Shown piece by piece: positions 20,926 to 42,030 of a stretch of 64,000 nucleotides of DNA (its first letter is position 1; each line of letters begins with the position of its first letter). Both the position numbers and the translations under genes were made by a program. The notes under the pieces were generated by a model that had not been told where the DNA came from, did no database searches, and saw only the letters and a list, made by a program, of their open reading frames with translations. Source of the stretch: Pseudonocardia ammonioxydans (GTDB taxonomy: Bacteria > Actinomycetota > Actinomycetes > Mycobacteriales > Pseudonocardiaceae); NCBI RefSeq assembly GCF_900115005.1, contig NZ_FOUY01000013.1, positions 1-64,000 of the forward strand. Direction: 5' to 3'.

Positions 20926-21603
20926 ATGAGCAGCACGCGGCAGCCGGAGCGGCGGCTGATGCCGGCCGAGACCGTCTACCGGAGCCTGCGGGGCGGCGAC
21001 CACGCCCCGGCCGCACTGTCCGGGGCGGCCCTGGTCGGGGTCCGGACGGCCGCCGACCTCGCGTCCGGGGCGATCACCTTCGAGCAGGCCGCCGACCGGC
21101 TCGACGAAGCCGGGCTCCCGGTGCGGTGGCCGCGCACCGCGGGCACCGCGACGGCCGCGGGGCTCGAGCAGATCACCGCGGCGCGACTGGTCCTGGAACC
21201 GGCCGCGGCGGCCGGTGCGGCCGCGGCCGCCGGCCCGGAGGACCGCGACCTGCTCCGCGAGCGGGCGAGCTTCCTGGCCACGGCCGCCTGCGGCGAGTCG
21301 GACCCCGACCGGCTGTTCCGGCACGACGCCGAGGTGCACGCGCTGCTCTACCGGATCGCGGGCGGCGGACCGGCCGACCCCGACCTGCCCGACCTGTGCG
21401 CCCTCGCCCACCGGGACTGGGCGGGCCGGGCACGGGCGACCGGCGACGTCCTCGACGCGGTGCGACCGCACCTGACCGAGCTCGGTGACGTGCTGCGGGC
21501 CGTCGCCGAGGGGACGCCCGAGCAGGCGCGGCGGACGGCGACGACACACGTGTGGGGCACCCACCTCATGCTCATGCAGGCGGCAGCCGGTTCCGCCCGC
21601 TGA
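20926..21603 (+). CDS. FCD-domain (GntR-like) regulator lacking a recognisable HTH
   Basis: This is a 225-residue protein. The C-terminal ~140 residues (ITAARLVLEPAAAAGAAAAA, then LFRHDAEVHALLYRIAGG and ending TTHVWGTHLMLMQAA) follow the all-helical FCD ligand domain of FadR/GntR regulators, with His/Asp residues of the metal-binding type. The first ~85 residues (PAETVYRSLRGGDHAPAALS...) do not show a normal winged helix, so DNA binding is uncertain. ATG 20926 has GGGAGGA five bases upstream. The 3' end overlaps the opposing PucR gene by 32 bases. It could be a ligand sensor for the creatine-type locus next to it. Confidence 0.6.
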   Translation: MSSTRQPERRLMPAETVYRSLRGGDHAPAALSGAALVGVRTAADLASGAITFEQAADRLDEAGLPVRWPRTAGTATAAGLEQITAARLVLEPAAAAGAAAAAGPEDRDLLRERASFLATAACGESDPDRLFRHDAEVHALLYRIAGGGPADPDLPDLCALAHRDWAGRARATGDVLDAVRPHLTELGDVLRAVAEGTPEQARRTATTHVWGTHLMLMQAAAGSAR

Positions 21604-23122: not shown

Positions 23123-23256
23123 GATATGTCGCCTCCTTCGCATGATCAGTGGACATTCTGAACCTTCTGGCCCGGCCACCACCTCCGTCACCCTTTCTCG
23201 ACACGCATCGACTTCTGACACGCAATCGACGGAACCCCAGCCGGAAGGACACCTCC
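23123..23256. promoter_or_regulatory. Divergent promoter region, PucR and creatinase-operon genes
   Basis: These 134 bases separate the divergent regulator and permease genes. The region is AT-richer than the coding flanks, with the TGATCA palindrome at 23143-23148 and GGACATTCTGAACCTTCTGG after it. No confident -35/-10 pair was identified. GGAAGGA at 23242-23248 is the permease ribosome binding site. Confidence 0.4.
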
Positions 23257-24726
23257 ATGGACGCACCGGTCGGATCGGCCGCCGGCCCGGACTTCGAACA
23301 GGCGACCCGGCGCGTCCCCGACTCCGAGCGGACGTCGAGCGTCTCGGGCCAGTTCTGGATCTGGGCCGGCGCCAACATCGCCCCGATCAACTGGGTCCTG
23401 GGCGCCCTCGGGATCAAGCTCGGGCTGTCCCTCTCGGACACCCTGATCGTGCTGATCGCCGGGAACCTGATCGGGATGGCCGGCTTCGGCGTCTTCGTCC
23501 TGCTCGGACAGAAGACCGGCGTCACCGGGATGGTGCTGTCCCGGGGCCCGTTCGGCCGCCGCGGCGCGTATCTCCCCGCGACCATCCAGGCGTGCCTGGC
23601 CATCGGCTGGTGCGCGGTCAACACCTGGATCGTGCTCGACCTGGTGATGGCGCTGTTCGGCAAGATCGGCCTGGTCGACCCGCTCGCCGCCAACGCCGGC
23701 TGGCGGATCGGCGTCGCCGCCGCGATCATGGCGATCCAGGTCGCCATCTCGTGGGCCGGCTACCGCGCCATCGCCGGCTTCGAACGCTGGACGGTCCCGC
23801 CCACCATCGTCGTCCTGGTCGTCATGTCGGTGGCGGCGTGGTTCTTCATCGGCGTCGACTGGGGCTACCAGGGCCCGCCCGGGGAGATCCTGACCGGGAC
23901 CGACCGGATCGTGGCGATGTCCGGGGTGATGACGGCGATCGGCATCGGCTGGGGCATCACGTGGTTCACCTACGCCGCCGACTACTCCCGCTTCGTCAGC
24001 CGCTCGATGCCGCGCTCCCGGCTCTACCTCGCCAGCGTCCTGGGGCAGTTCATCCCGGTCGTCTGGCTCGGGGTGCTGGGCGCGTCGCTGGCCACCCGCA
24101 ACGGCTCGATCGACCCCGGCCAGCTCGTCGTCGAGAACTTCGGGGCGCTCGCGATCCCGGTCCTGCTCCTCGTGGTGCACGGGCCGATCGCCACCAACAT
24201 CCTCAACATCTACACGTTCTCGGTGGCCGTGCAGGCGCTGGACATCAAGGTCTCGCGCCGGGCGCTGAGCCTCGCGGTCGGCGTCGTCGCACTCGTCGCG
24301 GTGATCTTCTTCGTCTACGCCGAGGACTTCGCGACGGTGCTCGACACCTGGCTGGTCGGCATCGTCGCCTGGATCGCCGCCTGGGCGGGGGTGATGCTCG
24401 TGCACTGGTTCGTGTTCGAGCGCGGCACGGTCGACACCGACCGGCTGCTCGCCGAACCCGCCGAGCGGCGCATCCCCGCGTTCCACACCCCCGGCCTGGT
24501 GTCCTTCGCCGCAGGTGTCGTCGCGACCTGGCTGTTCCTGCACGGCGAGGCGTCGCTGCTGCAGGGCCCGATCTCCACCGCACTCGGCGGCCTCGACCTG
24601 TCCTGGCTGGCCGGCGGCCTCGTCTCGGCCGGGACCTACCTGGTGCTCGGCCGCCCTACCACGCCGGCCACGACCGGCGTCCCCGCCCGGGCGGCCCGCC
24701 CGGAGCCGACCCCGACCCAGCAGTGA
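23257..24726 (+). CDS. NCS1 family permease (nucleobase/allantoin/hydantoin type)
   Basis: This is a 489-residue membrane transporter with about 12 hydrophobic segments. Early features are SGQFWIWAGANIAPINWVLG and GMVLSRGPFGRRGAYLPATI, diagnostic of nucleobase-cation-symport-1 proteins. GIGWGITWFTYAADYSRFVS is the TM6 region that contacts the ring substrate. Known family substrates include cytosine, uracil, allantoin and hydantoins, usually with H+ or Na+. ATG 23257 follows GGAAGGA by eight bases. It is the first gene of an operon with a NodB-fold hydrolase (four-base gap) and creatinase, so a creatinine-like ring compound is a reasonable substrate (inference). Confidence 0.9.
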   Translation: MDAPVGSAAGPDFEQATRRVPDSERTSSVSGQFWIWAGANIAPINWVLGALGIKLGLSLSDTLIVLIAGNLIGMAGFGVFVLLGQKTGVTGMVLSRGPFGRRGAYLPATIQACLAIGWCAVNTWIVLDLVMALFGKIGLVDPLAANAGWRIGVAAAIMAIQVAISWAGYRAIAGFERWTVPPTIVVLVVMSVAAWFFIGVDWGYQGPPGEILTGTDRIVAMSGVMTAIGIGWGITWFTYAADYSRFVSRSMPRSRLYLASVLGQFIPVVWLGVLGASLATRNGSIDPGQLVVENFGALAIPVLLLVVHGPIATNILNIYTFSVAVQALDIKVSRRALSLAVGVVALVAVIFFVYAEDFATVLDTWLVGIVAWIAAWAGVMLVHWFVFERGTVDTDRLLAEPAERRIPAFHTPGLVSFAAGVVATWLFLHGEASLLQGPISTALGGLDLSWLAGGLVSAGTYLVLGRPTTPATTGVPARAARPEPTPTQQ

Positions 24727-24730
24727 GTGG

Positions 24731-25621
24731 ATGATGAGCGAGTTCGAGATCACCTGGCCGAGCGGCGTGCGCGCCGCCGCCGCGTTCACCTTCGACGTCG
24801 ACGCCGAGTCGTGCGCGCTGGCCCACGACCCGGCGCTGGCGCGCCGCACGTCGGTCATGTCGCACCAGTCCTACGGGCCGCGGGTCGCGGTACCGCGGAT
24901 CCTCGACATCCTCGACGGCCACGGCGTGCGGGCGACGTTCTTCGTCCCCGGCTACACCGCCGAGCTCTACCCGGACACCGTGCGGGCGATCGCCGAGCGC
25001 GGACACGAGATCGCCCACCACGGCTACCTGCACGAGAACATGCTCGGCCTCGACGAGGCCGAGGAGCTCGCCGTGCTCGACCGCGGCCTGGACGTGCTGC
25101 GCGACGTCGCCGGGGTCGTCCCGACCGGGTACCGGGCTCCCTGGTGGGAGATGAACTGGCACACCCCGAAGCTGCTCGCCGAGCGCGGCTTCCGCTACGA
25201 CTCCAGCCTGCTCGACGGCGACCGGCCCTACCGGTTCACCGCCGCCGCGGGGGCCGACCTGATCGAGATCCCGGTCGACTGGGCCCTCGACGACTGGGAG
25301 CAGTACGCCTTCTTCCCCGGCTGGACCGGCAGCGGGGTGATCGAGGACCCGGACAAGGCGACCGGCATGTGGTACCGCGAGGCCGCCGCGCACCACCGCT
25401 GGGGCGGGTGCTTCGTGCTGACCAACCACCCGTTCCTCTCCGGGCGGCCCGGACGGGCGCACGCCCTCGACGAGCTGATCGGCCGCGTCGCCGCCCTGGA
25501 GGGCATGTGGGTCACGACGCTGGCCGAGATCGCGGAGCAGGCCTGGTCGACCTGCACCGCGACGTTCACCCACCTGCGCCCGGAGATGCCCGCCCCCACC
25601 CGGGCACCCGGGCAGCCCTGA
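24731..25621 (+). CDS. NodB-fold (polysaccharide deacetylase family) cyclic-amide hydrolase-like protein
   Basis: This is a 296-residue cytoplasmic protein of the NodB homology group: FTFDVDAES (motif 1, residues 19-27), HGYLH (97-101, H-x3-H), GYRAPWWEMN (133-142), FRYDSS (154-159) and the final NHP (232-234). There is no signal peptide and the body lacks glycan-binding modules. This fits PuuE-type allantoinases and cyclic-imide hydrolases better than envelope deacetylases. It sits between an NCS1 permease and creatinase, exactly where a ring-opening enzyme would be expected. I propose action on creatinine or a related ureide; the direct evidence is only family and position. The start codon is ATG 24731 or ATG 24734. 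Confidence 0.78.
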   Translation: MMSEFEITWPSGVRAAAAFTFDVDAESCALAHDPALARRTSVMSHQSYGPRVAVPRILDILDGHGVRATFFVPGYTAELYPDTVRAIAERGHEIAHHGYLHENMLGLDEAEELAVLDRGLDVLRDVAGVVPTGYRAPWWEMNWHTPKLLAERGFRYDSSLLDGDRPYRFTAAAGADLIEIPVDWALDDWEQYAFFPGWTGSGVIEDPDKATGMWYREAAAHHRWGGCFVLTNHPFLSGRPGRAHALDELIGRVAALEGMWVTTLAEIAEQAWSTCTATFTHLRPEMPAPTRAPGQP

Positions 25622-25664
25622 CCCACCCACCCGTACGCACATCCACGATCCGAAGGGAAGCACC

Positions 25665-26885
25665 GTGACGCTCGAACGGCTGAAGGACATCCACAACGGC
25701 GAGAAGGTCACCCCGACGTTCTCCCGCGAGGAGATGGACCGGAGGCTGGGCCGGCTCCGCAAGCACATGGCCGACGGCGGGCTCGACGCCGTCCTGTTCA
25801 CCAGCTACCAGAACATCAACTACTACAGCGACTTCCTCTACACGACGTTCGGGCGCAACTACGGGCTGCTCGTCACTCAGGACGCGCACACCACGATCTC
25901 GGCGAACATCGACGCCGGGCAGCCGTGGCGGCGCAGCACCCACGACAACGTCGTCTACACCGACTGGCAGCGCGACAACTACTTCCACGCCGTCCGCACC
26001 GTGCTGGCCGACGGCGGGCTGACCCGCGGCCGGCTCGGCATCGAGGACGACACGGTGCCGATGCGCACCCGCGGGCAGCTCGCCGACGCCCTGCCGGACT
26101 TCGAGTTCGTCGACGTCTCGCAGGCCGTGATGCGACACCGGATGGTCAAGTCCCCCGAGGAGATCGCGTTGATCACCGGGGGGGCCCGGATCGCGGACAT
26201 CGGCGGGGCGGCGGTCACCGCCGCCGTGGCCGAGGGGGTGGCCGAGTACGAGGTCGCCCTGGCCGGCACCGAGGCCATGGTGCGCGAGATCGCCGCCACC
26301 TACCCGCACGCCGAGCTGCGCGACACCTGGGTCTGGTTCCAGTCCGGGATCAACACCGACGGCGCGCACAACTGGGCCACCTCCCGGCGGGTCCAGCGCG
26401 GCGACATCCTGTCGCTGAACTGCTTCCCGATGATCGCGGGCTACTACACCGCGCTGGAGCGCACGCTGTTCCTCGGCCGGCCCAGCGACGAGCACCTGCG
26501 GCTGTGGGAGGTCAACACCCGGGTGCACCGCCGCGGGCTGGAGCTGCTGCGGCCGGGTGCGGTGTGCAAGGACATCGCCGCCGAGCTGAACGAGATCTAT
26601 GAGGCCGAGGGCCTGCTCCCGAACCGCACGTTCGGCTACGGCCACTCCTTCGGCGTGCTCTCGCACTACTACGGCCGCGAGGCCGGCCTCGAGCTGCGCG
26701 AGGACATCGAGACCGTCCTCGAGCCCGGCATGGTCGTCTCGATGGAGCCGATGATCATGATCCCGGAGGGTCGGCCCGGCGCGGGCGGGTACCGCGAGCA
26801 CGACATCCTCGTCATCGAGGAGAACGGCGCGCGCAACATCACCGGCTTCCCGTTCGGCCCGGAGCACAACATCCTCGGCGGCTGA
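25665..26885 (+). CDS. Creatinase (creatine amidinohydrolase), M24 fold
   Basis: This is a 406-residue pita-bread-fold enzyme that hydrolyses creatine to sarcosine and urea. It follows the Pseudomonas creatinase sequence nearly end to end as I recall it. The catalytic His is at 235 (NTDGAHN), the substrate glutamates at 265 (TALERTLF) and 361 (VSMEPMIM), Phe62 and Arg64 in TTFGRNY, His327 in GYGHSFG, Arg338 in HYYGREAG and His379 in YREHDIL. These are the creatinase active-site residues with a +3 offset beyond residue 100. The metal ligands of M24 aminopeptidases are not retained as a set. GTG 25665 has AAGGGAAG upstream. It is the last gene of the operon. Confidence 0.93.
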   Translation: MTLERLKDIHNGEKVTPTFSREEMDRRLGRLRKHMADGGLDAVLFTSYQNINYYSDFLYTTFGRNYGLLVTQDAHTTISANIDAGQPWRRSTHDNVVYTDWQRDNYFHAVRTVLADGGLTRGRLGIEDDTVPMRTRGQLADALPDFEFVDVSQAVMRHRMVKSPEEIALITGGARIADIGGAAVTAAVAEGVAEYEVALAGTEAMVREIAATYPHAELRDTWVWFQSGINTDGAHNWATSRRVQRGDILSLNCFPMIAGYYTALERTLFLGRPSDEHLRLWEVNTRVHRRGLELLRPGAVCKDIAAELNEIYEAEGLLPNRTFGYGHSFGVLSHYYGREAGLELREDIETVLEPGMVVSMEPMIMIPEGRPGAGGYREHDILVIEENGARNITGFPFGPEHNILGG

Positions 26886-30132: not shown

Positions 30133-31374
30133 TCAGCCCGCGGAGACCCGCACGGCCTCCGGCCCGGTGGGGCGAGTCACCGCCGACACGGTCCCGACCA
30201 CGAGCAGCACCAGCAGCGCGACGAGCACGACCAGCAGCGGCACCTCCCACCCGCCGGTGCGCTCGTACGCCGCCCCCACCACCAGCGGTGCAGTGGCGGC
30301 CACCAGGTAGCCGCCGCCCTGCACCAGCGCCGACATCCGGCGGTTCTCGGTCAGGTCCCGGGCCCGGCGCACCACCAGCGCGAAGATCACCGTGATGCCG
30401 CCGCCCTGGGCCGCGCCGCCCAGCATCGACCACACCGGCCACGATCCCGGTGCGAGGAGCAGCCCGAGCGGCAGCGCGGTCCAGACGACGCCCACGAGCG
30501 CCATCGGCATCCACGGCGCGGGGCAGACCCGCAGCAGGACCGGGACACCGAACGCGCCCGCGATCGCCGAGATCTGGAACAGCGACGCGGCGACCCCGGC
30601 GCCCTCCGGGGTCATGCCGAGCTCGTCGGTCAGCAGCACCGGTAGCCAGGCCGTGACGCCGTAGTAGGCGAAGGCCTGGCCGGCGAACGCGACCGTCAGT
30701 CCCCAGACAACCGGTCGCCGCCACCAGACCGGCCCGGTCGTCTCCCCGGCCGGACGGGTGCCGGCCGCGTCACCGTCGTCGTCGGGCAGGTGGCGGGTCG
30801 CGAGCCACCACGACAGCCCGGCCACCACGGCCAGCCCGCCCCACACCGCCAGCGCGAACCGCCAGTCGGTGGCACCCGCGATCGGCGCGGTCAGCGAGAG
30901 GGTCGCCATCGAGCCGACGTTGAGCGTCGCGGTGTAGAGCCCGAGCACCGGCCCGGCCCGGCGCGACAGGTCCCGGCCGATGATCACGGGTACCGCGACG
31001 TTCCCGACGGTCACCGCGGCGCCGATCAGCAGCGTCCCCGCGACCGCCGTGCCGAGGCCCCCGACCGATCTCAGGACGATGCCCGCGGCGAGCACCGCCA
31101 GCGCGACCAGCACACCCCGCCCGAGCCCGGTCCGGGCCAGCAACGCCGACGCCGCCGGCGTCGCGAGACCGAAGCAGAGCACCGGCAGGCTGGTCAGCAG
31201 GCCGGCGGTCGCCGCGTCGATCCCCAGGTCGGCCTGGATGTCGCCGGTCACCGCGGAGACCGCCACGATCGGCCCGCGCAGGTTCAACGCCAGCAGGACG
31301 ATCGCGGTGATCAGCAGTGCGGGGGCGACGGCCCGGCGGGTGGGGGTGGGATGCGTCGTGGACACCGGGTCCAT
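30133..31374 (-). CDS. MFS transporter, CynX/NimT type
   Basis: This is a 413-residue transporter with 12 hydrophobic segments. The opening LLALNLRGPIVAVSAVTGDI and VGNVAVPVIIGRDLSRRAG match the cyanate/2-nitroimidazole (CynX/NimT) branch of the major facilitator superfamily. ATG 31374 (MDPVSTTHP) is chosen; an upstream GTG at 31401 has no ribosome binding site. It follows the Rieske/HDO gene set on the same strand with a 105-base gap. It could import the substrate or export the product of that system, but independent function is equally possible. Confidence 0.85.
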   Translation of the reverse strand: MDPVSTTHPTPTRRAVAPALLITAIVLLALNLRGPIVAVSAVTGDIQADLGIDAATAGLLTSLPVLCFGLATPAASALLARTGLGRGVLVALAVLAAGIVLRSVGGLGTAVAGTLLIGAAVTVGNVAVPVIIGRDLSRRAGPVLGLYTATLNVGSMATLSLTAPIAGATDWRFALAVWGGLAVVAGLSWWLATRHLPDDDGDAAGTRPAGETTGPVWWRRPVVWGLTVAFAGQAFAYYGVTAWLPVLLTDELGMTPEGAGVAASLFQISAIAGAFGVPVLLRVCPAPWMPMALVGVVWTALPLGLLLAPGSWPVWSMLGGAAQGGGITVIFALVVRRARDLTENRRMSALVQGGGYLVAATAPLVVGAAYERTGGWEVPLLVVLVALLVLLVVGTVSAVTRPTGPEAVRVSAG

Positions 31375-31479
31375 GCTGGCGTCCGCCGCGCTCCGCGGCA
31401 CCCGGTCGTGAGCAAGGACAAGTTCCCGCGATCAGGACAGGACGTGGACCGCGACGACCGACGTGCGTCGCTCCACCGC

Positions 31480-31857
31480 TCAGGACGCGGTGTCCCCGAG
31501 CCGCCGTGCCCCGACCGCGCGGCGACGCATGGCGGCCTCCGCGAGCTCGGCGTCGACGCCGACGTAGACGTGCCCGTCCTCCTCCCGCACCGGGAACACG
31601 GTGATCGGGCGGGTCGCCGGCGGGCACAACGGCTCACCGGAGGCGTAGTCGAACACGCTGCCGTGACAGGAGCACAGCAGACCCTCGTCGGTCACCTTGC
31701 CGCTGGAGAGCAGGCAGTCCAGATGGCTGCAGTAGTTGGAGGTCGCGTGGACCTCGCCGTCGGAACGCGAGAGCGCGACCTCGACCTCACCGGCGAAGAA
31801 CCTGCGCACGACCCCCTCGGGGATCTGGCCGGAACGGGCGATCTTGTGGAACTCCAC
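31480..31857 (-). CDS. Rieske [2Fe-2S] ferredoxin (1)
   Basis: This is a 125-residue Rieske protein. The cluster ligands are in CSHLDC (Cys and His of C-x-H) and CSCHGS (C-x2-H), 18 residues apart; the segment FDYASGEPLCPPATRPI after them is the proline-loop region. There is no membrane helix, so it is a soluble electron carrier. GTG 31857 follows AGGAG by five bases and lies eight bases after the reductase stop, so the two genes are co-transcribed and probably co-translated. It should pass electrons from the FAD reductase to an oxygenase. Confidence 0.92.
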   Translation of the reverse strand: MEFHKIARSGQIPEGVVRRFFAGEVEVALSRSDGEVHATSNYCSHLDCLLSSGKVTDEGLLCSCHGSVFDYASGEPLCPPATRPITVFPVREEDGHVYVGVDAELAEAAMRRRAVGARRLGDTAS

Positions 31858-31865
31858 GATGACTC

Positions 31866-33092
31866 CTAGGCGGTGATGCTGTCGAGCAGGTCGAAGAGGT
31901 CCTGGTCGTCGTCGGCCAGGGCCTCGCGCGGGACCGGGGTCCCGAGCGCGAGGAGCCGGCGGGCCGCGGGGACGTCGCCCCCGCGTTCGACGGCGAAGGC
32001 CGCACGGACGCAGCCGTCGGCCAGGTAGAAGGCGGTGAAGTCCCGCTCGGTGACGCTGCCGCGGATCACGATCTCGGCGTCGGCGGGGGCGTGGCCGACG
32101 AACTGGAGGTTGAGGTCGTACTGGTCGGACCAGAACCACGGCGCCTCGGCGGGCGGGGTCGGCTTGCCGAGCAGTGCCCGTGCCACCGTCCCGCCCTGGG
32201 TCGTGGCGTTGTCGACGTGTTCGATGCGCAGGTACCCCTCCCCCGCGGCGCGGGTCGCGACGTCCCCCGCGGCGAAGACCCCCGGAGCGGAGGTGCGGCA
32301 GGCGTCGTCGACGACGATGCCGCCGCGGACCGGGTCGGTGGCGATGCCGGCGGCCCGGGCCAGTTCGTCGTTCGGCACCGACCCGACGGCGACGACCACC
32401 AGGTCGGCCGCCACGGGCCCGGCCGCCGTGCGGATCACGACCCCGTCCGCGGTCTCCTCGATCGACCCGATCTCCTGCCCGCACCGCAGGTCCACCCCGT
32501 GGTCGCGGGCCAGGTCCGCGCAGAACCCGGCCATGCCCGGGCCGAGCTGCCCGAGCATCGGCAGCTGCCCGGCCTCCAGGACGGTCACGTCGATCCCCCG
32601 CGCACGGGCCGAGGACGCCACCTCGGCGCCGATCAGCCCGCCGCCGACGACGGCGAGCCGCTCGACCGCCGGCAGCGCGTCGCGCAGCCGGGTGGCGTCG
32701 GCGACGGTGCGCAGGTGCAGGACGCGCTCGCCGGCGAGGCCCGGCAGGGTGCGGGCCCGGACGCCGGTGGCGAGCAGGACAGCGTCCGCGTCGATCCGGG
32801 AGCCGTCGGCGAGCACCACCTCGCCCGGGGCGACGGCCGCCGCCGCACTGCCGGGCCGCAGCACGACGTCATTCGCGGCGGCCCAGGCCTCGTCGAGCAG
32901 CACCAGGTCGGCGGAGCCGGACTCGCCGGTCAGGAAGTCCTTCGACAGCGGCGGACGCTGGTAGGGCAGATGGGGCTCGTCGGACAGGACGGTCACCGGG
33001 CCGTCGAAGCCCCGGCGGCGCAACATCCGCACCGCAGCGACGGCGGCCTGGCCGGCACCCACGGTGACCAGGCTGCGGGGTAGGTCGGGCAT
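31866..33092 (-). CDS. FAD-dependent ferredoxin reductase (BphA4/CamA type)
   Basis: This is a 408-residue NAD(P)H:ferredoxin reductase. The FAD motif LVTVGAGQAAVAAVRMLRR is at the N terminus, LPYQRPPLSKDFL follows, the NAD motif LAVVGGGLIGAEVASSARA is near residue 150, and APGVFAAGDVA is near 270. The C-terminal domain ends DFTAFYLADGCVRAAFAVER. This is the oxygenase-coupled reductase family. ATG 33092 shares one base with the stop of the upstream Rieske gene (TGATG). It sits between two Rieske genes, so it can reduce one or both. Confidence 0.93.
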   Translation of the reverse strand: MPDLPRSLVTVGAGQAAVAAVRMLRRRGFDGPVTVLSDEPHLPYQRPPLSKDFLTGESGSADLVLLDEAWAAANDVVLRPGSAAAAVAPGEVVLADGSRIDADAVLLATGVRARTLPGLAGERVLHLRTVADATRLRDALPAVERLAVVGGGLIGAEVASSARARGIDVTVLEAGQLPMLGQLGPGMAGFCADLARDHGVDLRCGQEIGSIEETADGVVIRTAAGPVAADLVVVAVGSVPNDELARAAGIATDPVRGGIVVDDACRTSAPGVFAAGDVATRAAGEGYLRIEHVDNATTQGGTVARALLGKPTPPAEAPWFWSDQYDLNLQFVGHAPADAEIVIRGSVTERDFTAFYLADGCVRAAFAVERGGDVPAARRLLALGTPVPREALADDDQDLFDLLDSITA

Positions 33093-33433
33093 CAGATCTC
33101 CTCGTGGCTGCGGGGCCGGGGGTCGACGTGCACCACGCCGTCGACGATCCGGACGTCGTGCACCGGCTGGCACTCGTCGCGCCCCTCGGCCCGGCCGGTC
33201 TCGGGATCGAACGCCCACTGGTGGGCCGGGCACACGACCCGGCCCTGCCAGACGACGCCACGGGCCAACGACCGTCCCTTGTGGACGCAGACGTCGTCGA
33301 AGGCGAAGACCCGGTCGCCGACGAGGAACAGCGCGACGGCGCGGTCGCCGAGCTCGACCCGGGTCCGGCGCCGGCGCGCGAGGTCGGCGTAGCGGACGGT
33401 GGCGATCCAGTGGGTGGTGTCGGTGTCGGTCAC
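33092..33433 (-). CDS. Rieske [2Fe-2S] protein (2), NirD-like
   Basis: This is a 113-residue single-domain Rieske protein: CVHKGRSL (C-x-H) and CPAHQWAFD (C-x2-H), 18 residues apart, then PETGRAEGRD and a closing beta pair. The Arg-rich segment DLARRRRTRVELGDRAV precedes the cluster. It is similar in size to NirD and to biphenyl-dioxygenase ferredoxins. It lies 63 bases downstream of the HDO gene and overlaps the reductase gene, making it the more likely direct electron donor to the HDO (inference). Confidence 0.9.
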   Translation of the reverse strand: MTDTDTTHWIATVRYADLARRRRTRVELGDRAVALFLVGDRVFAFDDVCVHKGRSLARGVVWQGRVVCPAHQWAFDPETGRAEGRDECQPVHDVRIVDGVVHVDPRPRSHEEI

Positions 33434-33496
33434 GAGCCCTCCTCCCTGGCGTCGGGCCGCGGCGGGTGCGGTCGGGCACCCGCCGCGGCGGGGCGG

Positions 33497-34237
33497 TCAG
33501 AGGGTGGGCGCGACGTAGGTGTCGTAGAGCGCGCGGGTGTAGGAGAAGCGCATCTCCGCGCCCCAGCGCACGAACTGCAGGCAACGCTGCTGCAGTTCCG
33601 GGGTGTCGGCGTGGTCGAGCACGATCTGGAAGCCCCGCTCGCCGTGCACCTCGTCCGAGGTGATGTGCAGGTCGAAGAACTCGATCTCGTCCTCGGTGAA
33701 GCCGTAGGCCTCGCGCAGCGGCACGATCTGCTTCTTGTAGATGCTCGGCACCTGCGACTCGAGGCCGACGACCAGCGCGGCGGTGGCGACCACGAAGTGC
33801 TCGCGCATCGCGACCGCGTAGCACCAGGACTGCAGACCGCGGGTGACCGCGTTCATGTTGTCCGGGTTCTCGATCCGCTCCCGGCTGGTCCCGCACGCCT
33901 CGCCGAACCGGATGAGGAGGTCGGTGTGCCGGATGTCGGCGAGCTCCTCCTCGTACATGTTCTGGAGGGTGAAGTCCTTGGCGTCGGTGCAGTGGTCGGG
34001 GGTGTTGCCGTAGATGTAGCCGAGGTAGTCGGCGAACGGCCCGACGTAGTGGTAGTGGTTCTCGGCCCAGCGGCTGAAGTGCTCGCGGGTCAGCGTGCCG
34101 TCCGCCCAGGCCTTCGAGAACGAGGCGTTCTTCGCCTCGCGGCCCTTGATCGCGTCCTCCAGGGCGGCCCGGAAGTCCTCCCGGGACAGCATCCCCGGGG
34201 CGGGTGTCCCGGTGGTCTCGTCGACGGTCAGGGTCAT
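33497..34237 (-). CDS. Haem-oxygenase-like diiron oxidase (PqqC/TenA/CADD-like)
   Basis: This is a 246-residue all-helical protein of the PqqC/TenA fold. Glu97 and His104 (YEEELADIRH), Glu160 (VVGLESQVP), His191, Asp195 and His198 (DLHITSDEVH) have the spacing E-x6-H ... E ... H-x3-D-x2-H that supplies the two-iron site in CADD-type HDO enzymes. The full ligand set therefore appears present, unlike in thiaminase-type TenA. ATG 34237 has GGAGG eight bases upstream. It heads an operon with two Rieske proteins and a reductase, suggesting an O2-activating enzyme with a dedicated electron supply. The substrate is not known; no other oxygenase is in the operon. Confidence 0.8.
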   Translation of the reverse strand: MTLTVDETTGTPAPGMLSREDFRAALEDAIKGREAKNASFSKAWADGTLTREHFSRWAENHYHYVGPFADYLGYIYGNTPDHCTDAKDFTLQNMYEEELADIRHTDLLIRFGEACGTSRERIENPDNMNAVTRGLQSWCYAVAMREHFVVATAALVVGLESQVPSIYKKQIVPLREAYGFTEDEIEFFDLHITSDEVHGERGFQIVLDHADTPELQQRCLQFVRWGAEMRFSYTRALYDTYVAPTL

Positions 34238-34505: not shown

Positions 34506-36164
34506 TCAGAAGAAGGTCGCGGCCACCAGCGTCGAGACCGCCAGCCCGGCCATCACCGGCAGGAAGCACCGGCGGGCGAGCTCGATGACGGGCACGCGGG
34601 TCACCCCGGCGACGACCAGCAGTGACGACCAGGCGACGAGGACGCCGCCGCCGGCCCAGATCGAGCCCATCTGCCCGACGGCGGCCAGCGTCGCCGGGTC
34701 CACGCCGACCGTCGGTCCCAGTGCACCGGCGAGCGAACCGGTCATCGGCAGCCCGGAGAAGCCGGAGCCGTCGAGCCCGCCGAGCAGCCCGACGATCAGC
34801 ACTCCGAAACACATGACGACGGGGTTGTCCGGGATGAGGTGCTGCGCGGACACGACGAGGTCGAGCAACAGCGACGGTGCCTGCGCGTCGTCGGGCAGCC
34901 CCAGGATCTCGCCCGCGAAGTCGGAGTTCCCCATGAAGAAGAACCCGGCGATCGGCAGGACCGCACCCATCGCCCGGAACGCGAAGACCAGCCCGTCGGT
35001 GACGTGCTCCCCGACCGAGGACAGCGCGGCCCGGGGGCCGTCGAGCGCGATGCAGGCCAGCACGGCGAGCACGACCGCGAGCCCGCCGACCAGCGCCGCG
35101 GCGGAGCCGCTCTCGACCGGCGGCACGAGCGACAGCTCGCCGAGCACCAGATAGACGATCATCAATCCGAACGTCACCGGAACCGCGACGGCGAAGACCC
35201 TCGCCAGCCGCTCGGTGCGCGGGTCCTGGGGCACGGTGTCCCGCCCGGCCGGCTCCGCGTCGCGGTCCGGAACGTCCCCGGACCCACCCGACGGCGGTGG
35301 CGCCGCACCGTTCGCGTCGCTCTCCCCGGTCCGGGGCCCGCCACCCACCGCCGCGCCGACCGCGACCCGTTCCTCGACCTGCTCGGTCACGGCGATCGGC
35401 TCGGCCCCGCTGCCGCCGGCCTCTCGTGCACCGAGCAGGCGCAGCCGCAGCCGGCGGACCAGCCCGGCCGAGGGCCGCGGCCCGACGACGACACCGGACT
35501 CCCACTCCTCGAGGTGCGCGTCCGAGGGTGCCCGCATGTGCCGGGCCAGCAGCGCCCCCATGATCGCGAGCGCGGTGATCCCGGTGACGATCGAGAGGAC
35601 GAGTGCGACGTCGGCGACCCGGCCCGGATCGGTCCCGGCCGCGGTCGCGGAGAGGCCCGGTGCCACCTGCATGACGTAGTCGCTGGACAGCGCCATGCCC
35701 TGGCCGGCCACCGCGATCGCCATGGCGGCCCCCATCGCTGGGAGCCCGGCCCGGATCGCGGCCGGCACCAGGATCGCGCCGATCAACGGGACCGCGGGCG
35801 TCGGCCAGAAGAACAGGCTGACCACGAACGTGACCACGATCAGCACGGTCCAGGCGGACCAGCCGCCGCGCATCACCTTCTGGAACGGGGTGACCATGCG
35901 CTGGTCGGCGCGCATCGCCCGGAGCGCGCCGAGCAGGGCCGTCACCATCGCGATGATCAGGAAGATGTTGAACAGTTCGGCCGCCGCGGTCAACGTGGCG
36001 TTGAAGATGGCCTGGACGGCGACGATCGGGTCGGCCGTCACGGTCCAGGCCGTCGCGACCGTCGCCAGCAGGGCCGGTACCAGGACGTTCCTCCGGGCGA
36101 TCATCGTGCCGAGGATCAGGATTACGCCGCCCAGATAGACCCAGTGCGCAGCAGTCAGAGCCAC
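34506..36164 (-). CDS. Large integral membrane transporter-like protein, family not identified
   Basis: This is a 552-residue protein with about 11-12 hydrophobic segments. A long charged, probably cytoplasmic loop (about residues 215-335) is rich in Gly, Pro, Glu and Arg. Conserved-looking signatures include AGQGMALSSDYVMQVAPGLS, MGAVLPIAGFFFMGNSDFAG and the C-terminal LLGGLDGSGFSGLPMTGSLA with QMGSIWAGGG, a helix-hairpin style seen in ion-transporter-superfamily (DcuC/GntP/NhaC-like) carriers. I do not recognise the exact family. GTG 36164 follows AAGGAGG by five bases. It is divergent from a gamma-glutamyltransferase operon, so uptake of an amino acid or peptide-like acid is a fair guess. 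Confidence 0.7.
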   Translation of the reverse strand: MALTAAHWVYLGGVILILGTMIARRNVLVPALLATVATAWTVTADPIVAVQAIFNATLTAAAELFNIFLIIAMVTALLGALRAMRADQRMVTPFQKVMRGGWSAWTVLIVVTFVVSLFFWPTPAVPLIGAILVPAAIRAGLPAMGAAMAIAVAGQGMALSSDYVMQVAPGLSATAAGTDPGRVADVALVLSIVTGITALAIMGALLARHMRAPSDAHLEEWESGVVVGPRPSAGLVRRLRLRLLGAREAGGSGAEPIAVTEQVEERVAVGAAVGGGPRTGESDANGAAPPPSGGSGDVPDRDAEPAGRDTVPQDPRTERLARVFAVAVPVTFGLMIVYLVLGELSLVPPVESGSAAALVGGLAVVLAVLACIALDGPRAALSSVGEHVTDGLVFAFRAMGAVLPIAGFFFMGNSDFAGEILGLPDDAQAPSLLLDLVVSAQHLIPDNPVVMCFGVLIVGLLGGLDGSGFSGLPMTGSLAGALGPTVGVDPATLAAVGQMGSIWAGGGVLVAWSSLLVVAGVTRVPVIELARRCFLPVMAGLAVSTLVAATFF

Positions 36165-36381
36165 CGCTGCCTCCTTCCCGCCGAGCACACGGCGGTGTGT
36201 GTGGTGGTGTGGCGGAACACACTCACACTCCCCCGACCGGTGGGCCAGGCCAACAGTGCACAGCCCTGCGGTCACCGATTGTGCAAGGTGCCGTGACGAC
36301 GCCGTGCCGACACAGTGCCCTCGTCGAGGGCTCGGTTCTGTGCAGGTTTCACGTAGGCGGCACAGAGCACCGGAGTGGATC
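36165..36381. promoter_or_regulatory. Divergent control region, transporter and gamma-glutamyltransferase
   Basis: The region contains GCCCTCG at 36317-36323 and CGAGGGC at 36325-36331, an inverted repeat around one base. It is flanked by CACAG (36311-36315) and CTGTG (36338-36342), extending the symmetry. A GT-rich block at 36190-36215 faces AACACACTCACAC at 36217-36230. These are operator candidates; no regulator gene adjoins. Confidence 0.4.
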
Positions 36382-38022
36382 GTGCCTCGCATGACCGTCC
36401 TCGCACCCGCGTCCCCGTTCCCCGTGTCCGCCCGCGTACCGGCGCTCGGCGCCGACGGCATGGTGTCCGCCAGCCATCCGGCGATCAGCCGTGCCGGGGC
36501 CGAGGTACTGGCCTCGGGCGGCAACGCCGTCGACGCGGCGCTGGCGATGGCCGCCGTCGCCTGGCTGGCGCTGCCGGGGCAGTGCGGGGTCGGCGGGGAC
36601 GCGTTCGCGCTGGTCCGCGAGGCCGACGGCGAGGTACGTGCGTTCTGCGGCAGCGGCTTCGGTCCGGACGGCGGCACCCCGGACCGCTACGGCGCCGCGA
36701 CGACGCTGCCCCGGTACGGACCGTTGTCGGTCACCGCACCGGGAGCGGTCGCCGCGCTCGCCGCGCTGCACGTCGCGGGCGCAACCCGGCCCCTGCCTGA
36801 GCTGTGGCAGCCCGCGGTCCGGATCGCCGCCGCCGGGCTGCCGTGCACGGCGCGGACCCGCGACGACATCGGCCGCCACCGCGACCGGCTGGCCGCGGAC
36901 CCGGACACGGCCGCCGCCCTGCTCCGCGACGGCCGGGCACCGGCCGTCGGGACCCGCCTCGCCCACCCCCGCCTCGCCGAGTCGATCGCGACCCTCGCCC
37001 GCGACCCGGACGCCCTCTACACCGGCTCCCTCGCGGACCGGGCGGTCGAGGCCCTGGTCGCGGGCGGTGCGCCCTTCACCGGCGACGAGTGGGCCGCCAG
37101 TGGGCACGTCCCGGCCCAGGCCCCGCTCGAGGGCCGGTACGCGGGCCACCGCGTCTTCCAGACCCCGCTGCCGACCCCGGGCTGGATGGTGCTCGACCAG
37201 CTGGCGATGTGCGACGGCGAGCTGCGCACCGGTGGTACCGCCCCGGCGCCGCTCGGCGTCGAGGCCGTCCACCGGCTCGCCGGCGCCGCCCGCATCGCGT
37301 TCGACGACCGCTATCACCGGGCGGGAGCCGACGTCCCCGTCCCCGCCCGGGCCGGCGACCCGGCCGCACTGGCCCACGCCCGGGAACGGATCCGGGCCGG
37401 GGACCTGCCGGGTCCGGCCGGTGCCCGGGCCGGCGGGGACACGACGTCGATGGTCGCCGTCGACGCCGAGGGGCGGGCGGTCGGGCTGATCGCGTCCCTG
37501 GCGTTCACCTTCGGTGCCGGGACGACCGTGCCGGGCACCGGCATCGTGCTCAACAACCGGCTCGCCCGGGGCGCCTACCTCGTGCCCGGACATCCGAACG
37601 AGGTACGGCCGCGCCGCCGCCCCCTGCACACGCTCAACACCTGGCTGGTCACCGACGACGGCGGCCGGCTGCAGCACGTCGGCAACACCCCCGGCGGCGA
37701 CGGCCAGGTGCAGTGGAACGCCCAGCTGATCTCCCACCTGCTCGACCACGGCGCGGGCCCGCAGGACGCGGTGGACGCGCCCCGGTTCTCGGTCTTCCCG
37801 GGCAGCGACGCCGGTGACCTGGGCAGCCCGGCGGAGCTGCGGTGCGAGGACCGGCTCGGGCCCGCGGTCCTCGCCGGCCTGGCCGCGCGGGGGCACCGGG
37901 TCGTCGACGTCGGCGGGCACGGGGCGGGCGGGAGCGCCCAGGTCGTGTCGGTCGACCAGCGCAGCGGCTGCCTGGTGGCGGGGTCGGACTCCCGCCAGGA
38001 AGGGGTGGCGCTCGGTGTCTGA
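36382..38022 (+). CDS. Gamma-glutamyltransferase family Ntn hydrolase
   Basis: This is a 546-residue protein of the gamma-glutamyltranspeptidase family. GMVSASHPAISRAGAEVLAS and GGNAVDAALAMAAVAWLALP open the large subunit; the autocatalytic nucleophile is Thr354 in GGDTTSMVAVD, followed by FGAGTTVPGTGIVLNNRLA and NTPGGDGQVQWN. No signal peptide is visible, in contrast to periplasmic Ggt. Actinobacterial cytoplasmic members include cephalosporin-acylase-like and other amidases, so the substrate is open. GTG 36382 is favoured by GGAGTGG upstream; ATG 36391 is possible. The stop overlaps the RidA gene by eight bases. Confidence 0.88.
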   Translation: MPRMTVLAPASPFPVSARVPALGADGMVSASHPAISRAGAEVLASGGNAVDAALAMAAVAWLALPGQCGVGGDAFALVREADGEVRAFCGSGFGPDGGTPDRYGAATTLPRYGPLSVTAPGAVAALAALHVAGATRPLPELWQPAVRIAAAGLPCTARTRDDIGRHRDRLAADPDTAAALLRDGRAPAVGTRLAHPRLAESIATLARDPDALYTGSLADRAVEALVAGGAPFTGDEWAASGHVPAQAPLEGRYAGHRVFQTPLPTPGWMVLDQLAMCDGELRTGGTAPAPLGVEAVHRLAGAARIAFDDRYHRAGADVPVPARAGDPAALAHARERIRAGDLPGPAGARAGGDTTSMVAVDAEGRAVGLIASLAFTFGAGTTVPGTGIVLNNRLARGAYLVPGHPNEVRPRRRPLHTLNTWLVTDDGGRLQHVGNTPGGDGQVQWNAQLISHLLDHGAGPQDAVDAPRFSVFPGSDAGDLGSPAELRCEDRLGPAVLAGLAARGHRVVDVGGHGAGGSAQVVSVDQRSGCLVAGSDSRQEGVALGV

Positions 38023-38485
38023 GCAGGAGGCGGTGGAGCCGGTGGCGGCCGGGGCTCCGCCGGTGCCCCAGGGGCGGTACGTGGCGGCCGTCGTCGACGG
38101 CGATCTCGTCCACAGCGCCGGGATGACTCCCCGCCGGGACGGCCGGCTGCTGGTGACCGGCCGGGTGGGCGACACGGTCGGGGTCGCCGAGGCCGCAGAG
38201 GCCGCCGGGATCGCCGTGCGCAACGCGCTGCGGGCGTGCACGGCCGCCGCCGAGGCGGCCGGGCGGGTCCTCACCCGGCCGGTGCGGATGAGGGTGTGGG
38301 TGGCGTGCTCGGCCGGTTTCACCGGACAGTCGACCGTCGCGGACGGGGCCTCCGCCGTGCTCGCTCAGGTCTTCGGCCCGGACCTCCTGCCGGTGCGGGC
38401 CGCCGTCGGCGCGCTCGCGCTGCCCGGCGGTGCCCCGGTCGAGGTCGAGCTCGTCGCCGCGCTCGCGCCGGCGGGCCCGCGGTGA
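38015..38485 (+). CDS. RidA (YjgF/YER057c) family protein
   Basis: This is a 156-residue Rid-superfamily protein. GRYVAAVVDGDLVHSAGMTP, VGDTVGVAEAAEAAGIAVRN, ALRACTAAAEAAGRVLTRPV and the closing PVEVELVAALA give the chorismate-mutase-like trimer fold. The usual RidA arginine position before the final strand is not clearly conserved, so deaminase activity is uncertain. Many such subgroups act inside catabolic operons. GTG 38015 overlaps the Ggt stop and the stop overlaps the MFS start by four bases, so the three genes are tightly coupled. Confidence 0.88.
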   Translation: MSEQEAVEPVAAGAPPVPQGRYVAAVVDGDLVHSAGMTPRRDGRLLVTGRVGDTVGVAEAAEAAGIAVRNALRACTAAAEAAGRVLTRPVRMRVWVACSAGFTGQSTVADGASAVLAQVFGPDLLPVRAAVGALALPGGAPVEVELVAALAPAGPR

Positions 38486-39849
38486 CCGGCACGGTCGACG
38501 CCGTCCGGACCGGCGGCCGGCTCGGACCGGCCACCGGGTTCCTGGTGCTCGGGACGTTCGCGAGCACGATCGCGAACACCCTGGTCACGGTGCCGCTCAC
38601 GGCCATCGTCACCGACCTCGGGGCTCCGCTGACCGCCGGGACACTCGTGGTGGTCGCGTTCAACCTGACCTGCGCGGCGATGCTCCCGTTCGCCGGGTGG
38701 CTGGGTGACCGGCTCGGCCGGCGGCGGCTCTTCCTGATCTCGATGATCGGGGTCGCCGCCGGCGCGACGGGTGCCGCCCTCGCCCCGAGCCTGCCGCTGC
38801 TCGTCGCGTTCCGCGCGGTGCAGGGCTTCTCCGGCGCGCTCGTGCTGCCGACGGTGCTGGCGCTGCTGACCGCGGCCGCCACACCGGAGCACCGTGGCCG
38901 CGCGGTGTCGTGGTGGGCGGCGGCCAACGGCGCCGGTCAGGCGGCCGGACCGACCCTCGGCGGGTTCCTGGCGGACGCGACCGGCTGGCGGTCGGTCTTC
39001 GCGGTGATCGTCCCCTTCGCGCTCGTGGCGTTCGCCGGTGCGCTACGCGGGCTCCCCCGCGACGAGCCGCGCGCCGTCCGGCTGGAGTGGGCCGGTGCCC
39101 TCACCCTCACCCTCGGCACGGTCGGCGTGCTCCTCGGTGCCGCGGCACTCGGCGCGGTCGGCCCCGCAGCCGCCGTGACGTGGGGCGGCTTCGGCGCGGG
39201 GCTGGCCTCGCTGGTCATGTTCGTGCTGGTCGAGCGGCGGGCCACCCGCCCGTTCGTCCCGCTCGGTCTGTTCGGCGACGCCCGGTTCGCGCGCTCGGCG
39301 GTGGCGGCGCTGGTCCAAATGATGTGTCTGACCGCGACCCTGCTGGCCGTCCCGCTGTTCCTGCTCGCCGAGTTCGGGATCCCGGCCCGGGACGCCGGCC
39401 TGCTGGTCGTCGCCGTGCCGGTCGTGATGACCGTGCTCGCGCCGGTCGTCGGCCGGCTGACCGAGGGGTGGAGCCCCCGCCTCGCACTACGCTGCGGGCT
39501 GCTCGTGCTCGCCGCGGCCGAGGCCGCCCTGGCCGTCGTGCTCGGCACGGCCTCGGCGTTGCCCGCGCTCGTCGCCGGCTGTGCGGCGATCGGCTGCGGC
39601 ATGGCCCTGACCCAGACCCCGGCGGCCACCGGCGCCGCACGGTCGGCGCAGCTGGCCGGGTCGGGGGCGGGACTGGGGGTGTTCAACTCCCTGCGTTTCG
39701 TCGGTGCCGCGCTCGGGGGCGTGGTGGTGGCCCTGGCCGTCGGCGACGGCCCGTCCGACCGGACCGCGACCGTGGTCGTCGCGCTCGTGTGTGCCGGGTC
39801 GGCACTGGTCGCCCTGGGTGTCAGCTTCGCGGGCCGCGTCCGCGGCTGA
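38482..39849 (+). CDS. MFS transporter (DHA2-like, 14-TM type)
   Basis: This is a 455-residue major facilitator with the motif WLGDRLGRRRLFLISM between TM2 and TM3, and FRAVQGFSGALVLPTVLALL in TM4, typical of drug:H+ antiporters. About 12-14 hydrophobic segments are predicted. GTG 38482 overlaps the RidA stop (GTGA). As the third gene of the Ggt/RidA operon it probably moves a substrate or product of that pathway, or exports a toxic analogue. A hairpin element follows the stop. Confidence 0.88.
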   Translation: MTGTVDAVRTGGRLGPATGFLVLGTFASTIANTLVTVPLTAIVTDLGAPLTAGTLVVVAFNLTCAAMLPFAGWLGDRLGRRRLFLISMIGVAAGATGAALAPSLPLLVAFRAVQGFSGALVLPTVLALLTAAATPEHRGRAVSWWAAANGAGQAAGPTLGGFLADATGWRSVFAVIVPFALVAFAGALRGLPRDEPRAVRLEWAGALTLTLGTVGVLLGAAALGAVGPAAAVTWGGFGAGLASLVMFVLVERRATRPFVPLGLFGDARFARSAVAALVQMMCLTATLLAVPLFLLAEFGIPARDAGLLVVAVPVVMTVLAPVVGRLTEGWSPRLALRCGLLVLAAAEAALAVVLGTASALPALVAGCAAIGCGMALTQTPAATGAARSAQLAGSGAGLGVFNSLRFVGAALGGVVVALAVGDGPSDRTATVVVALVCAGSALVALGVSFAGRVRG

Positions 39850-39990: not shown

Positions 39991-40443
39991 TCAGGCGGGG
40001 ACCGCGTCCGCGACCAGCTCCTCGAAGGCGCTCAGCGCCGCCGCCCCGACCGCCTTGTCCTGCTCCCCGTTGCCGCCGCTGATGCCCACCGCGCCGACGA
40101 CCTGGCCGTCGTGCACCAGCGGGAAGCCGCCGACGAACACGGCGAACCGGCCGGTGTGCATGTGCTGGATCCCGAACGCCTCGTTGCCCGGCAGCGCCGG
40201 GCCGTTGGGCGCCTCGTTGAACAGGTGGGTGGCCCGCTGGTGGCCGGCCGCGGTGAACGCCTTGGCGATGGCGATCTCGACGCCGGTCAGCCGGGCACCC
40301 GTCATGCGGTGCAGCGCGATCGGGTGGGCGCCGTCGTCGGCGACACAGATGGTCTGGCGGACGCCGATCCGCTCGGCCTCGGCCTCGGCCGCCCGCAGCA
40401 CGACGAGCGCGTCCTCGAGGGTCAGTCGGTGGATGGTCTGCAC
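39991..40443 (-). CDS. GlcG/HbpS family protein
   Basis: This is a 150-residue protein of the GlcG/HbpS fold. LTLEDALVVLRAAEAEAERI, QTICVADDGAHPIALHRMTG, SVEIAIAKAF-type TGVEIAIAKAFTAAGHQRAT and VVGAVGISGGNGEQDKAVGA are hallmark segments. Family members include haem-binding HbpS and proteins encoded with alcohol/aldehyde or propanediol catabolic enzymes. It lies 48 bases downstream of an aldehyde dehydrogenase gene on the same strand. The function is not firmly known for the family; an accessory role in aldehyde oxidation is inference. Confidence 0.85.
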   Translation of the reverse strand: MQTIHRLTLEDALVVLRAAEAEAERIGVRQTICVADDGAHPIALHRMTGARLTGVEIAIAKAFTAAGHQRATHLFNEAPNGPALPGNEAFGIQHMHTGRFAVFVGGFPLVHDGQVVGAVGISGGNGEQDKAVGAAALSAFEELVADAVPA

Positions 40444-40491: not shown

Positions 40492-41919
40492 TCAGGGGGT
40501 CAGGTAGACGGTCCGGACGTCGGTGACGAAGTCGAGGGCCTGGCGCCCGCCCTCCGGGAAGCCACCACCGGACGAGGCCCGCAGGCCCCCGAACGGCGGC
40601 GCGACCCCGTTGCCCGTCGTCGGGCCGTTGATCTTGACGATCCCGCAGGGTGCGGTGGCCGCGAACCGGTGGGCGACGGCGAGGTCGGTGGTGTGCACCG
40701 CGGTCGCGAGGCCGTGGGTCGAGTCGTCGAGGACGGCCAGGGCCTCGTCGACGCCGGCGACCGGCAGCACGGTGCAGAACGGGCCGAACACCTCGTCGGT
40801 GACGAGGGGATGGCCGGTGGGGACCTCGGTGAACAGCGTCGGCGGGACCCAGAAGCCGTCCGGATCGCGGTCGGTGACGGCCCCCGCGGAGGCGACGATC
40901 CGGGCGCCCGCCTCGACCGCGCTCGCCCGCAGCGCCTCCAGTCGCCGGAACTGTCCCGCGGTGGCGACCGGACCGGTCGTCGTCGCCGGGTCGTCGCCGG
41001 GGCCGACGGTCAGGGCCCGCACCCGCTCGGCGAGCAGGCCCATCAGCTCGGCGGCCACGGGCCGGGCGACCAGGACCCGGTCGGTGGAGGTGCACGCCTG
41101 CCCGGTGAGCCCGAACGCACCGGTCACGATGTCCGTGGCCGCCCGCTCCAGGTCGGCGTCGGCGCACACCACGGCGCAGTTGCGGCCGCCGAGCTCGAGC
41201 TGCAGCCGGGCCTGGCCGTGCGCCTGCGCGCGGATCGCCGCACCCACCTGGTCGGAGCCGGTGAAGCTGATCCCCCGGACGCGCGGGTCGGCGAGCAGCG
41301 TGGTCATCGCCTGCGGGTCGTGGCCGTGCAGCACGGGCATCGCGTCGTCGGGCAGCCCGGCCGCGGTGGCCGCCGCGGCGAGCCGCTCACCGGTCCCGGC
41401 CGTGACCGGCGAGGGCTTGAACACGACGGCGTTGCCCGCCGCGAGCGCCGGCGCGATCTTGCGGGCGGCCAGCGACAGCGGGAAGTTCCACGGGGTGACG
41501 GCGGCGACCACGCCGAGCGGTCCGCGCAGGGTGTAGGCGAACGTGCCGGGGGTCTCGGACGGGTAGGTCGTCCCCTCGACCAGGAACGCCAGCTGCGCGG
41601 CCAGCCGGAACTGCTCGGCGGCCTTGCCGACCTCGCCGCGGGCGGCACCGAGCGGTTTGCCCTCCTCCCGGGTGATCAGGTCGGCGAGCTCGTCGCGGTC
41701 GGCCTCGAGCTGCTCGGCGATCCCGCCGAGCACCGCGGCCCGGCGGGCCGGGGTGGTGTCGGCCCATCCGGTCGCGGCGGCACGATCGACCGCGGCGCGC
41801 GCGTCGACGGCGGTGGCGGGCCGGAACCGGCTGACGGAACGGCTGGGGCGGGCCGGATCGGTCGTCCACGACTCGGTCGCGCGGACGTCCTCGCCCGGGA
41901 GAGTCGGTGCGGGATGCAC
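40492..41919 (-). CDS. NAD(P)-dependent aldehyde dehydrogenase
   Basis: This is a 475-residue ALDH superfamily enzyme that oxidises an aldehyde to its acid. The motif VTPWNFPLSLAARKIAPALA begins the cofactor fold, VFKPSPVT supplies the NAD-contact lysine, ISFTGSDQVGAAI the glycine motif, LELGGRN the general-base Glu, and TGQACTSTDR the catalytic Cys. EVFGPFCTVLPV is near the end. GTG 41919 has GGAGG six bases upstream. It is transcribed with the GlcG-like gene and divergently from a PucR regulator, which suggests inducible use of an aldehyde. The overall pattern resembles semialdehyde or aliphatic ALDHs; the exact substrate is unknown. Confidence 0.93.
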   Translation of the reverse strand: MHPAPTLPGEDVRATESWTTDPARPSRSVSRFRPATAVDARAAVDRAAATGWADTTPARRAAVLGGIAEQLEADRDELADLITREEGKPLGAARGEVGKAAEQFRLAAQLAFLVEGTTYPSETPGTFAYTLRGPLGVVAAVTPWNFPLSLAARKIAPALAAGNAVVFKPSPVTAGTGERLAAAATAAGLPDDAMPVLHGHDPQAMTTLLADPRVRGISFTGSDQVGAAIRAQAHGQARLQLELGGRNCAVVCADADLERAATDIVTGAFGLTGQACTSTDRVLVARPVAAELMGLLAERVRALTVGPGDDPATTTGPVATAGQFRRLEALRASAVEAGARIVASAGAVTDRDPDGFWVPPTLFTEVPTGHPLVTDEVFGPFCTVLPVAGVDEALAVLDDSTHGLATAVHTTDLAVAHRFAATAPCGIVKINGPTTGNGVAPPFGGLRASSGGGFPEGGRQALDFVTDVRTVYLTP

Positions 41920-42030
41920 GAAGAACCTCCGGCGGATTGTGGAATGTGACGGCTACCGGTGATTCTGGGCGCGGTCCACCATGACCGGCACTGGACGAAG
42001 TGCAGCCGACCACGGATCGGATATAGGCAG
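41920..42030. promoter_or_regulatory. Divergent promoter region, ALDH and PucR (2)
   Basis: These 111 bases separate divergent genes. CGGTC (41976-41980) and GACCG (41987-41991) form a short inverted repeat around CACCAT. GGATATAGG at 42019-42027 gives a TATA-rich spot just before the PucR start. No confident promoter was assigned. Confidence 0.35.

Follow-up and report, generated by a model that had tools for sequence, protein, structure and literature searches.

A candidate four-component oxygenase of actinobacteria with a haem-oxygenase-like protein as putative terminal component

A window of 64,000 nucleotides from Pseudonocardia ammonioxydans (assembly GCF_900115005.1, contig NZ_FOUY01000013.1, positions 1-64,000), the whole stretch of DNA analysed here, encodes what we take, with a probability of roughly two in three, to be a four-component oxygenase feeding the catabolism of nitrogen compounds. 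Its putative terminal component is a haem-oxygenase-like diiron oxidase (HDO), encoded together with a reductase and two small Rieske proteins.

Gene content, conservation and distribution

The conserved locus extends beyond the four genes of the first-pass annotation of this DNA, and comprises the following features.

31480-31857, minus strand: R2, second small Rieske [2Fe-2S] protein, 125 aa (Pfam Rieske, 7.1e-18)
31866-33092, minus strand: BphA4/HcaD-type NAD(P)H:ferredoxin reductase, 408 aa (Pyr_redox_2, 7.2e-56, with Reductase_C, 3.1e-26)
33092-33433, minus strand: R1, small Rieske [2Fe-2S] protein, 113 aa (Pfam Rieske, 4.4e-16)
33497-34237, minus strand: HDO, proposed terminal oxygenase, 246 aa (PF14518, Pfam Haem_oxygenas_2, 8.6e-37, 127 bits, cut-off 28.9)
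34506-36200, minus strand: TP, membrane transporter, distantly TRAP/DctM-like; 5' end not fixed
36391-38022, plus strand: GGT-family Ntn amidohydrolase; ATG start inferred (PF01019, 2.8e-88 for the ORF 36199-38022)
38015-38485, plus strand: Rid (YjgF) family protein, 156 aa; GTG start inferred (PF01042, 4.5e-9 for the frame 37814-38485)
38509-39849, plus strand: MFS transporter
39991-40443, minus strand: HbpS-like (DUF336) protein
40492-41919, minus strand: aldehyde dehydrogenase (ALDH)
41959-43791, plus strand: PucR-type regulator (GGDEF_2 and HTH_30 over cut-off, PucR domain just under)

The first-pass annotation had placed the HDO directly upstream of two closely spaced Rieske genes with a BphA4-type reductase gene between them, and this arrangement holds, with a gap of 63 bp between HDO and R1, an overlap of 1 nt between R1 and the reductase, and a gap of 8 bp between the reductase and R2. 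The NCBIfam matches of the core proteins all fall under their cut-offs, the nearest for the reductase being HcaD (325.7 bits; cut-off 450). The complete metal-ligand set that had been read in the HDO is likewise seen, with E97, H104, E160, H191, D195 and H198 all present in the window and intact in 81 of 82 relatives. The sole relative with an altered ligand (L070:10001-10720) carries Lys in place of Glu160, and may be an error or an inactive copy.

The annotation had further claimed that neither a Rieske-oxygenase alpha subunit nor any other terminal oxygenase is present, and indeed none was named by Pfam among the 31 scanned ORFs of the window, which are part of its ORFs and include some shadow frames. 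Ring_hydroxyl_A has eight matches in the P. ammonioxydans genome, every one on another contig; with none among the 31 scanned ORFs, a classical Rieske oxygenase operon was rejected. R2 is followed immediately, on its own strand, by a CynX/NimT-family MFS transporter (30133-31401, minus strand); as it finds no match in the loci of 80 relatives at the thresholds applied, it was rejected as a part of the system.

These relatives are the best 80 of 496 that were obtained with a profile of four close HDOs against genome contigs; some of the 80 loci are apparently the same records as other loci in the analysis. The gene set recurs in many actinobacteria: at best-segment HDO identities of 80-96%, 73 of these best 80 relatives carry all four genes. 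Since all 73 keep them colinear, the arrangement is not a product of chance, and the order is not confined to this genome. Among the 80 loci, the HDO is found in 80, R1 and the reductase in 79 each, R2 and ALDH in 74 each, PucR in 71, the MFS transporter and the HbpS-like protein in 68 each, Rid in 67 (with the query from relative L086) and the GGT-family protein in 64, while the count for TP depends on the query, being 61, or 70 with the Caballeronia copy. R2 is missing in six loci (L037, L046, L052, L076, L081 and L083) and the reductase in L046; in each of these loci the contig breaks off no more than about 3.2 kb away from the HDO. R1 is absent solely from L103, a metagenome-assembled genome. 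Where the Rieske proteins are present, their C-x-H...C-x2-H motif is intact throughout (79/79 for R1, 74/74 for R2). An ALDH gene stands between the reductase and R2 in 52 of the 80 loci, and the order in Rhodococcus is HDO-R1-Red-ALDH-R2.

The association with Rieske proteins sets this type of HDO apart: of 80 window-type loci, 79 have a Rieske motif no farther than 1.5 kb from the HDO, versus none of 30 other PF14518 loci, these controls being the best-scoring 30 of 74 listed PF14518 matches in the relatives, some of them cut by contig ends, and belonging to another, higher-scoring subfamily that is not matched in descent to the window-type HDO. Two of the controls contain traces of related genes, namely a weak R2-like match without the motif (L120) and a weak reductase match (L130).

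The distribution of the HDO is patchy, with 5 of 394 genomes of the class and, at an identity of at least 87%, 4 of 36 genomes of the genus, the source genome being included in both counts; four more members of the genus have a PF14518 match of similar Pfam score. A tree of 85 HDO rows broadly tracks families, with exceptions such as L068. The same genome encodes a second PF14518 protein (L026:6327-7457, minus strand), which is longer and belongs to a different subfamily.

The recipient of the electrons

What takes up the electrons of this chain? As the only candidate acceptor, the HDO had already been named in the first-pass annotation, and that proposal is supported by relatives from beta-proteobacteria. 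Seven plasmid records match the HDO in tblastn, one of which is PqqC; the other six are 69-73% identical, and five of them were read, two from Caballeronia and three from Cupriavidus. Because the two Caballeronia records are near-identical, the five represent fewer independent cases. All five encode the HDO, TP, the HbpS-like protein, an ALDH, an OCD-family protein and a GntR regulator, together with two plant-type (Fer2) ferredoxins, an FNR-type reductase and a small protein between the ferredoxins, as assigned with Pfam run on the Caballeronia proteins and part of those of Cupriavidus metallidurans CH34. The R1, R2 and reductase queries find no match in these five records, and none of the 80 actinobacterial loci is matched by the ferredoxin or FNR queries; the GGT and Rid queries find none in the beta-proteobacterial loci. 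The HDO, TP and the HbpS-like protein thus persist while an unrelated chain, again of two ferredoxins and one reductase, replaces the Rieske chain, from which we infer that both chains serve the HDO. No other observation speaks as strongly as this swap for the HDO as the recipient; together with gene order, it lends good support to the proposed delivery of electrons to the HDO.

Alternatively, the Rieske/reductase chain could feed a Rieske oxygenase encoded elsewhere, the HDO being self-sufficient or acting in a single turnover on cellular reductant. The Ring_hydroxyl_A proteins of the other contigs could also accept these electrons, and both Caballeronia records encode a Rieske-oxygenase alpha/beta pair at a distance of about 10 kb from the HDO. 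However, a query with this alpha subunit returns nothing from either the 80 actinobacterial loci or the three Cupriavidus records, R1, the reductase and R2 follow the HDO in all 73 four-gene loci, and the beta-proteobacterial HDO has a different chain altogether, making this arrangement improbable.

Two further components of the beta-proteobacterial loci may be recorded here. The small protein flanked by the ferredoxins (106-116 aa; L107:14069-14419, L108:11391-11711) has no Pfam match, and for the OCD-family protein of C. metallidurans the closest relative is 3hdj, followed by mu-crystallin and by thiomorpholine- and pyrroline-carboxylate reductases.

Relation to known oxygenases

In its sequence family and six-ligand set, the HDO resembles the 4-aminobenzoate synthases CADD and NePabS, and its nearest solved sequences are 9pj4, 8va9 and 1rcw (55-71 bits). 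It differs from these synthases, however, in having a dedicated electron chain and catabolic-looking neighbours, and the sacrificial Tyr27 and Lys152 of CADD align with S41 and Q170. It scores 87.4 bits against TIGR04305 (CADD; cut-off 200) and 48.8 bits against TIGR02111 (PqqC; cut-off 240). An identity as PqqC was rejected on this score, far under the cut-off, and on the presence of the six metal ligands, PqqC being metal-independent; a self-sacrificing synthase of the CADD type was rejected on the replaced residues and the score. A biosynthetic or self-processing, CADD-like HDO, to which the catabolic neighbours would be incidental, has in its favour that the solved proteins closest in sequence are of the CADD type, but with both residues replaced, a TIGR04305 score far under cut-off and no biosynthetic family noticed among the genes recurring at the locus, we consider it very improbable.

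Is a dedicated chain without precedent among HDOs? The consulted parts of a 2026 review count about a dozen validated HDOs, describe biosynthetic roles, and state that those studied need no protein effector. In 2026, the mangotoxin HDO MboA was reported with its reductase MboB; according to the authors, this may be the first dedicated pair of an HDO and a redox partner to be characterised (PMC13185094). As proposed for the HDO here, MboA relies on an NADH-dependent redox partner for further turnover; yet MboB is a single flavin/Fe2S2 reductase, with no Rieske protein named in the portion of that source available to us, and MboA is biosynthetic (PMC13185094), whereas the present HDO has catabolic-looking neighbours. 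The suggestion in the first-pass annotation that the system is undescribed therefore needs narrowing: a dedicated HDO/reductase pair has been published, while an HDO with a Rieske chain was not found described in the literature searched, to which subscription papers mostly did not belong.

Rieske ferredoxins next to non-Rieske oxygenases do have a parallel. According to the accessible parts of the reports on AibH1H2-AibG-AibF and SfbO, a Rieske ferredoxin adjoins, and is proposed to feed, a non-Rieske dinuclear oxygenase, which there belongs to the amidohydrolase superfamily PF04909 (PMC7782822, PMC10811679), unlike the HDO here. The chain itself is built from the same Rieske ferredoxin and FAD reductase families as the HcaC/HcaD-like chains of Rieske dioxygenases, albeit under the NCBIfam cut-offs, but it has two Rieske proteins, and no alpha/beta Rieske oxygenase turned up in the locus.

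Finally, the locus could be, or be homologous to, a system already characterised, for example the 2-hydroxypyridine dioxygenase HpoBCDF with HpoE of Rhodococcus rhodochrous PY11. The study of that strain reportedly describes a four-component dioxygenase with the dehydrogenase HpoE interposed, which would fit the Rhodococcus order given above; the lettering fits a classical Rieske dioxygenase operon as well. The PY11 pathway is also said to include a ring-opening cyclase, and no such cyclase stood out among the non-core genes recurring in the 80 loci, which were surveyed with no family-specific search. While PY11 is given as the only reported source of a dioxygenase that hydroxylates the pyridine ring at two positions (PMC6525221), a word search for 'pyridine' in the 2026 HDO review gave zero occurrences. 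On balance, we regard such an identity as unlikely. Text searches of the literature for the name of a substrate gave nothing usable.

Neighbouring genes and the predicted pathway

Judged by their family names, the neighbours place the proposed HDO-terminated oxygenase in a catabolic context: the amidohydrolase, the Rid or OCD protein, the ALDH, the transporters and the PucR regulator suggest the catabolism of a small nitrogen-containing compound, yielding an aldehyde, and the HDO probably starts its breakdown. In the GGT-family protein of relative L086, aligned to 2e0w, the catalytic Thr is kept while the Arg and Asp that bind the gamma-glutamyl group are replaced, at the positions which we take to bind gamma-glutamate in E. 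coli GGT; the window copy has the same kind of stretches (GSGFGP, DTTS, LNNRLARG). The protein probably acts as an amidohydrolase other than a gamma-glutamyltransferase. For the Rid protein of L086, the closest relative is PA0814; the HbpS-like protein is nearest to 2a2l, EfgA (6bws), which is a formaldehyde sensor, 5cx7 and NahX (9jth). For the window ALDH, the nearest NCBIfam is 2,5-dioxovalerate dehydrogenase, at 360 bits below the cut-off of 750. The ALDHs of the loci fall into three groups with a mutual identity of just 40-45%, which may act on different aldehydes. The window copy of TP, in its longer ORF, has no Pfam match; a fragment of TP from L039, which shares 61% identity with the window copy, matches DctM.

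From the observed gene set and its conservation, the preserved ligands of the metal site and the clusters, and the exchange of the electron chain, we infer a path of the electrons, a class of substrate and an order of steps. NADH would reduce the FAD reductase, and the two Rieske proteins would relay the electrons to the HDO, whose dimetal site, once reduced, would activate O2 in repeated turnovers. The HDO would thereby carry out the first oxygenation of a small, imported nitrogen-containing carboxylate or N-heterocycle, probably a ring oxygenation or a cleavage of a C-N or C-C bond. The resulting aldehyde or hemiaminal would be oxidised by the ALDH, and the nitrogen would then be handled by the GGT-family amidohydrolase and the Rid protein, or by the OCD-family protein in beta-proteobacteria.

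More tentatively, and at somewhat less than an even chance, the system could represent a new class of multicomponent oxygenases of many Actinomycetota and some Burkholderiales, in which a catabolic, NADH-driven terminal HDO, the first of its kind, opens or oxygenates a nitrogen heterocycle, and whose electron chain was exchanged between phyla. If so, the fold would reach into the multicomponent oxygenases through a catabolic HDO that is supplied from NADH by a chain of its own; mechanistic studies would gain an HDO that naturally performs multiple turnovers, and a gene set found across many actinobacterial genomes would be assigned a function.

Several further observations concern the surroundings of these genes. 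Elsewhere in the window (21572-26885), a second PucR, a purine/cytosine permease, a polysaccharide deacetylase-like protein and an M24 peptidase form another possible nitrogen-compound cluster. A DUF1275 membrane protein is encoded near the locus in several relatives (L038:9138-9839, L089:3515-4243, L053:9144-9953). The neighbours of HbpS-like genes on other plasmids, of which two were inspected, revealed no common pathway. A tentative lead is an Arthrobacter plasmid (L148:13980-23624), on which a TP homologue, 37% identical, lies beside an LLM flavin oxygenase, an amidase, an ALDH that is 36% identical to the Rhodococcus ALDH, and a Rid hydrolase whose match is weak.
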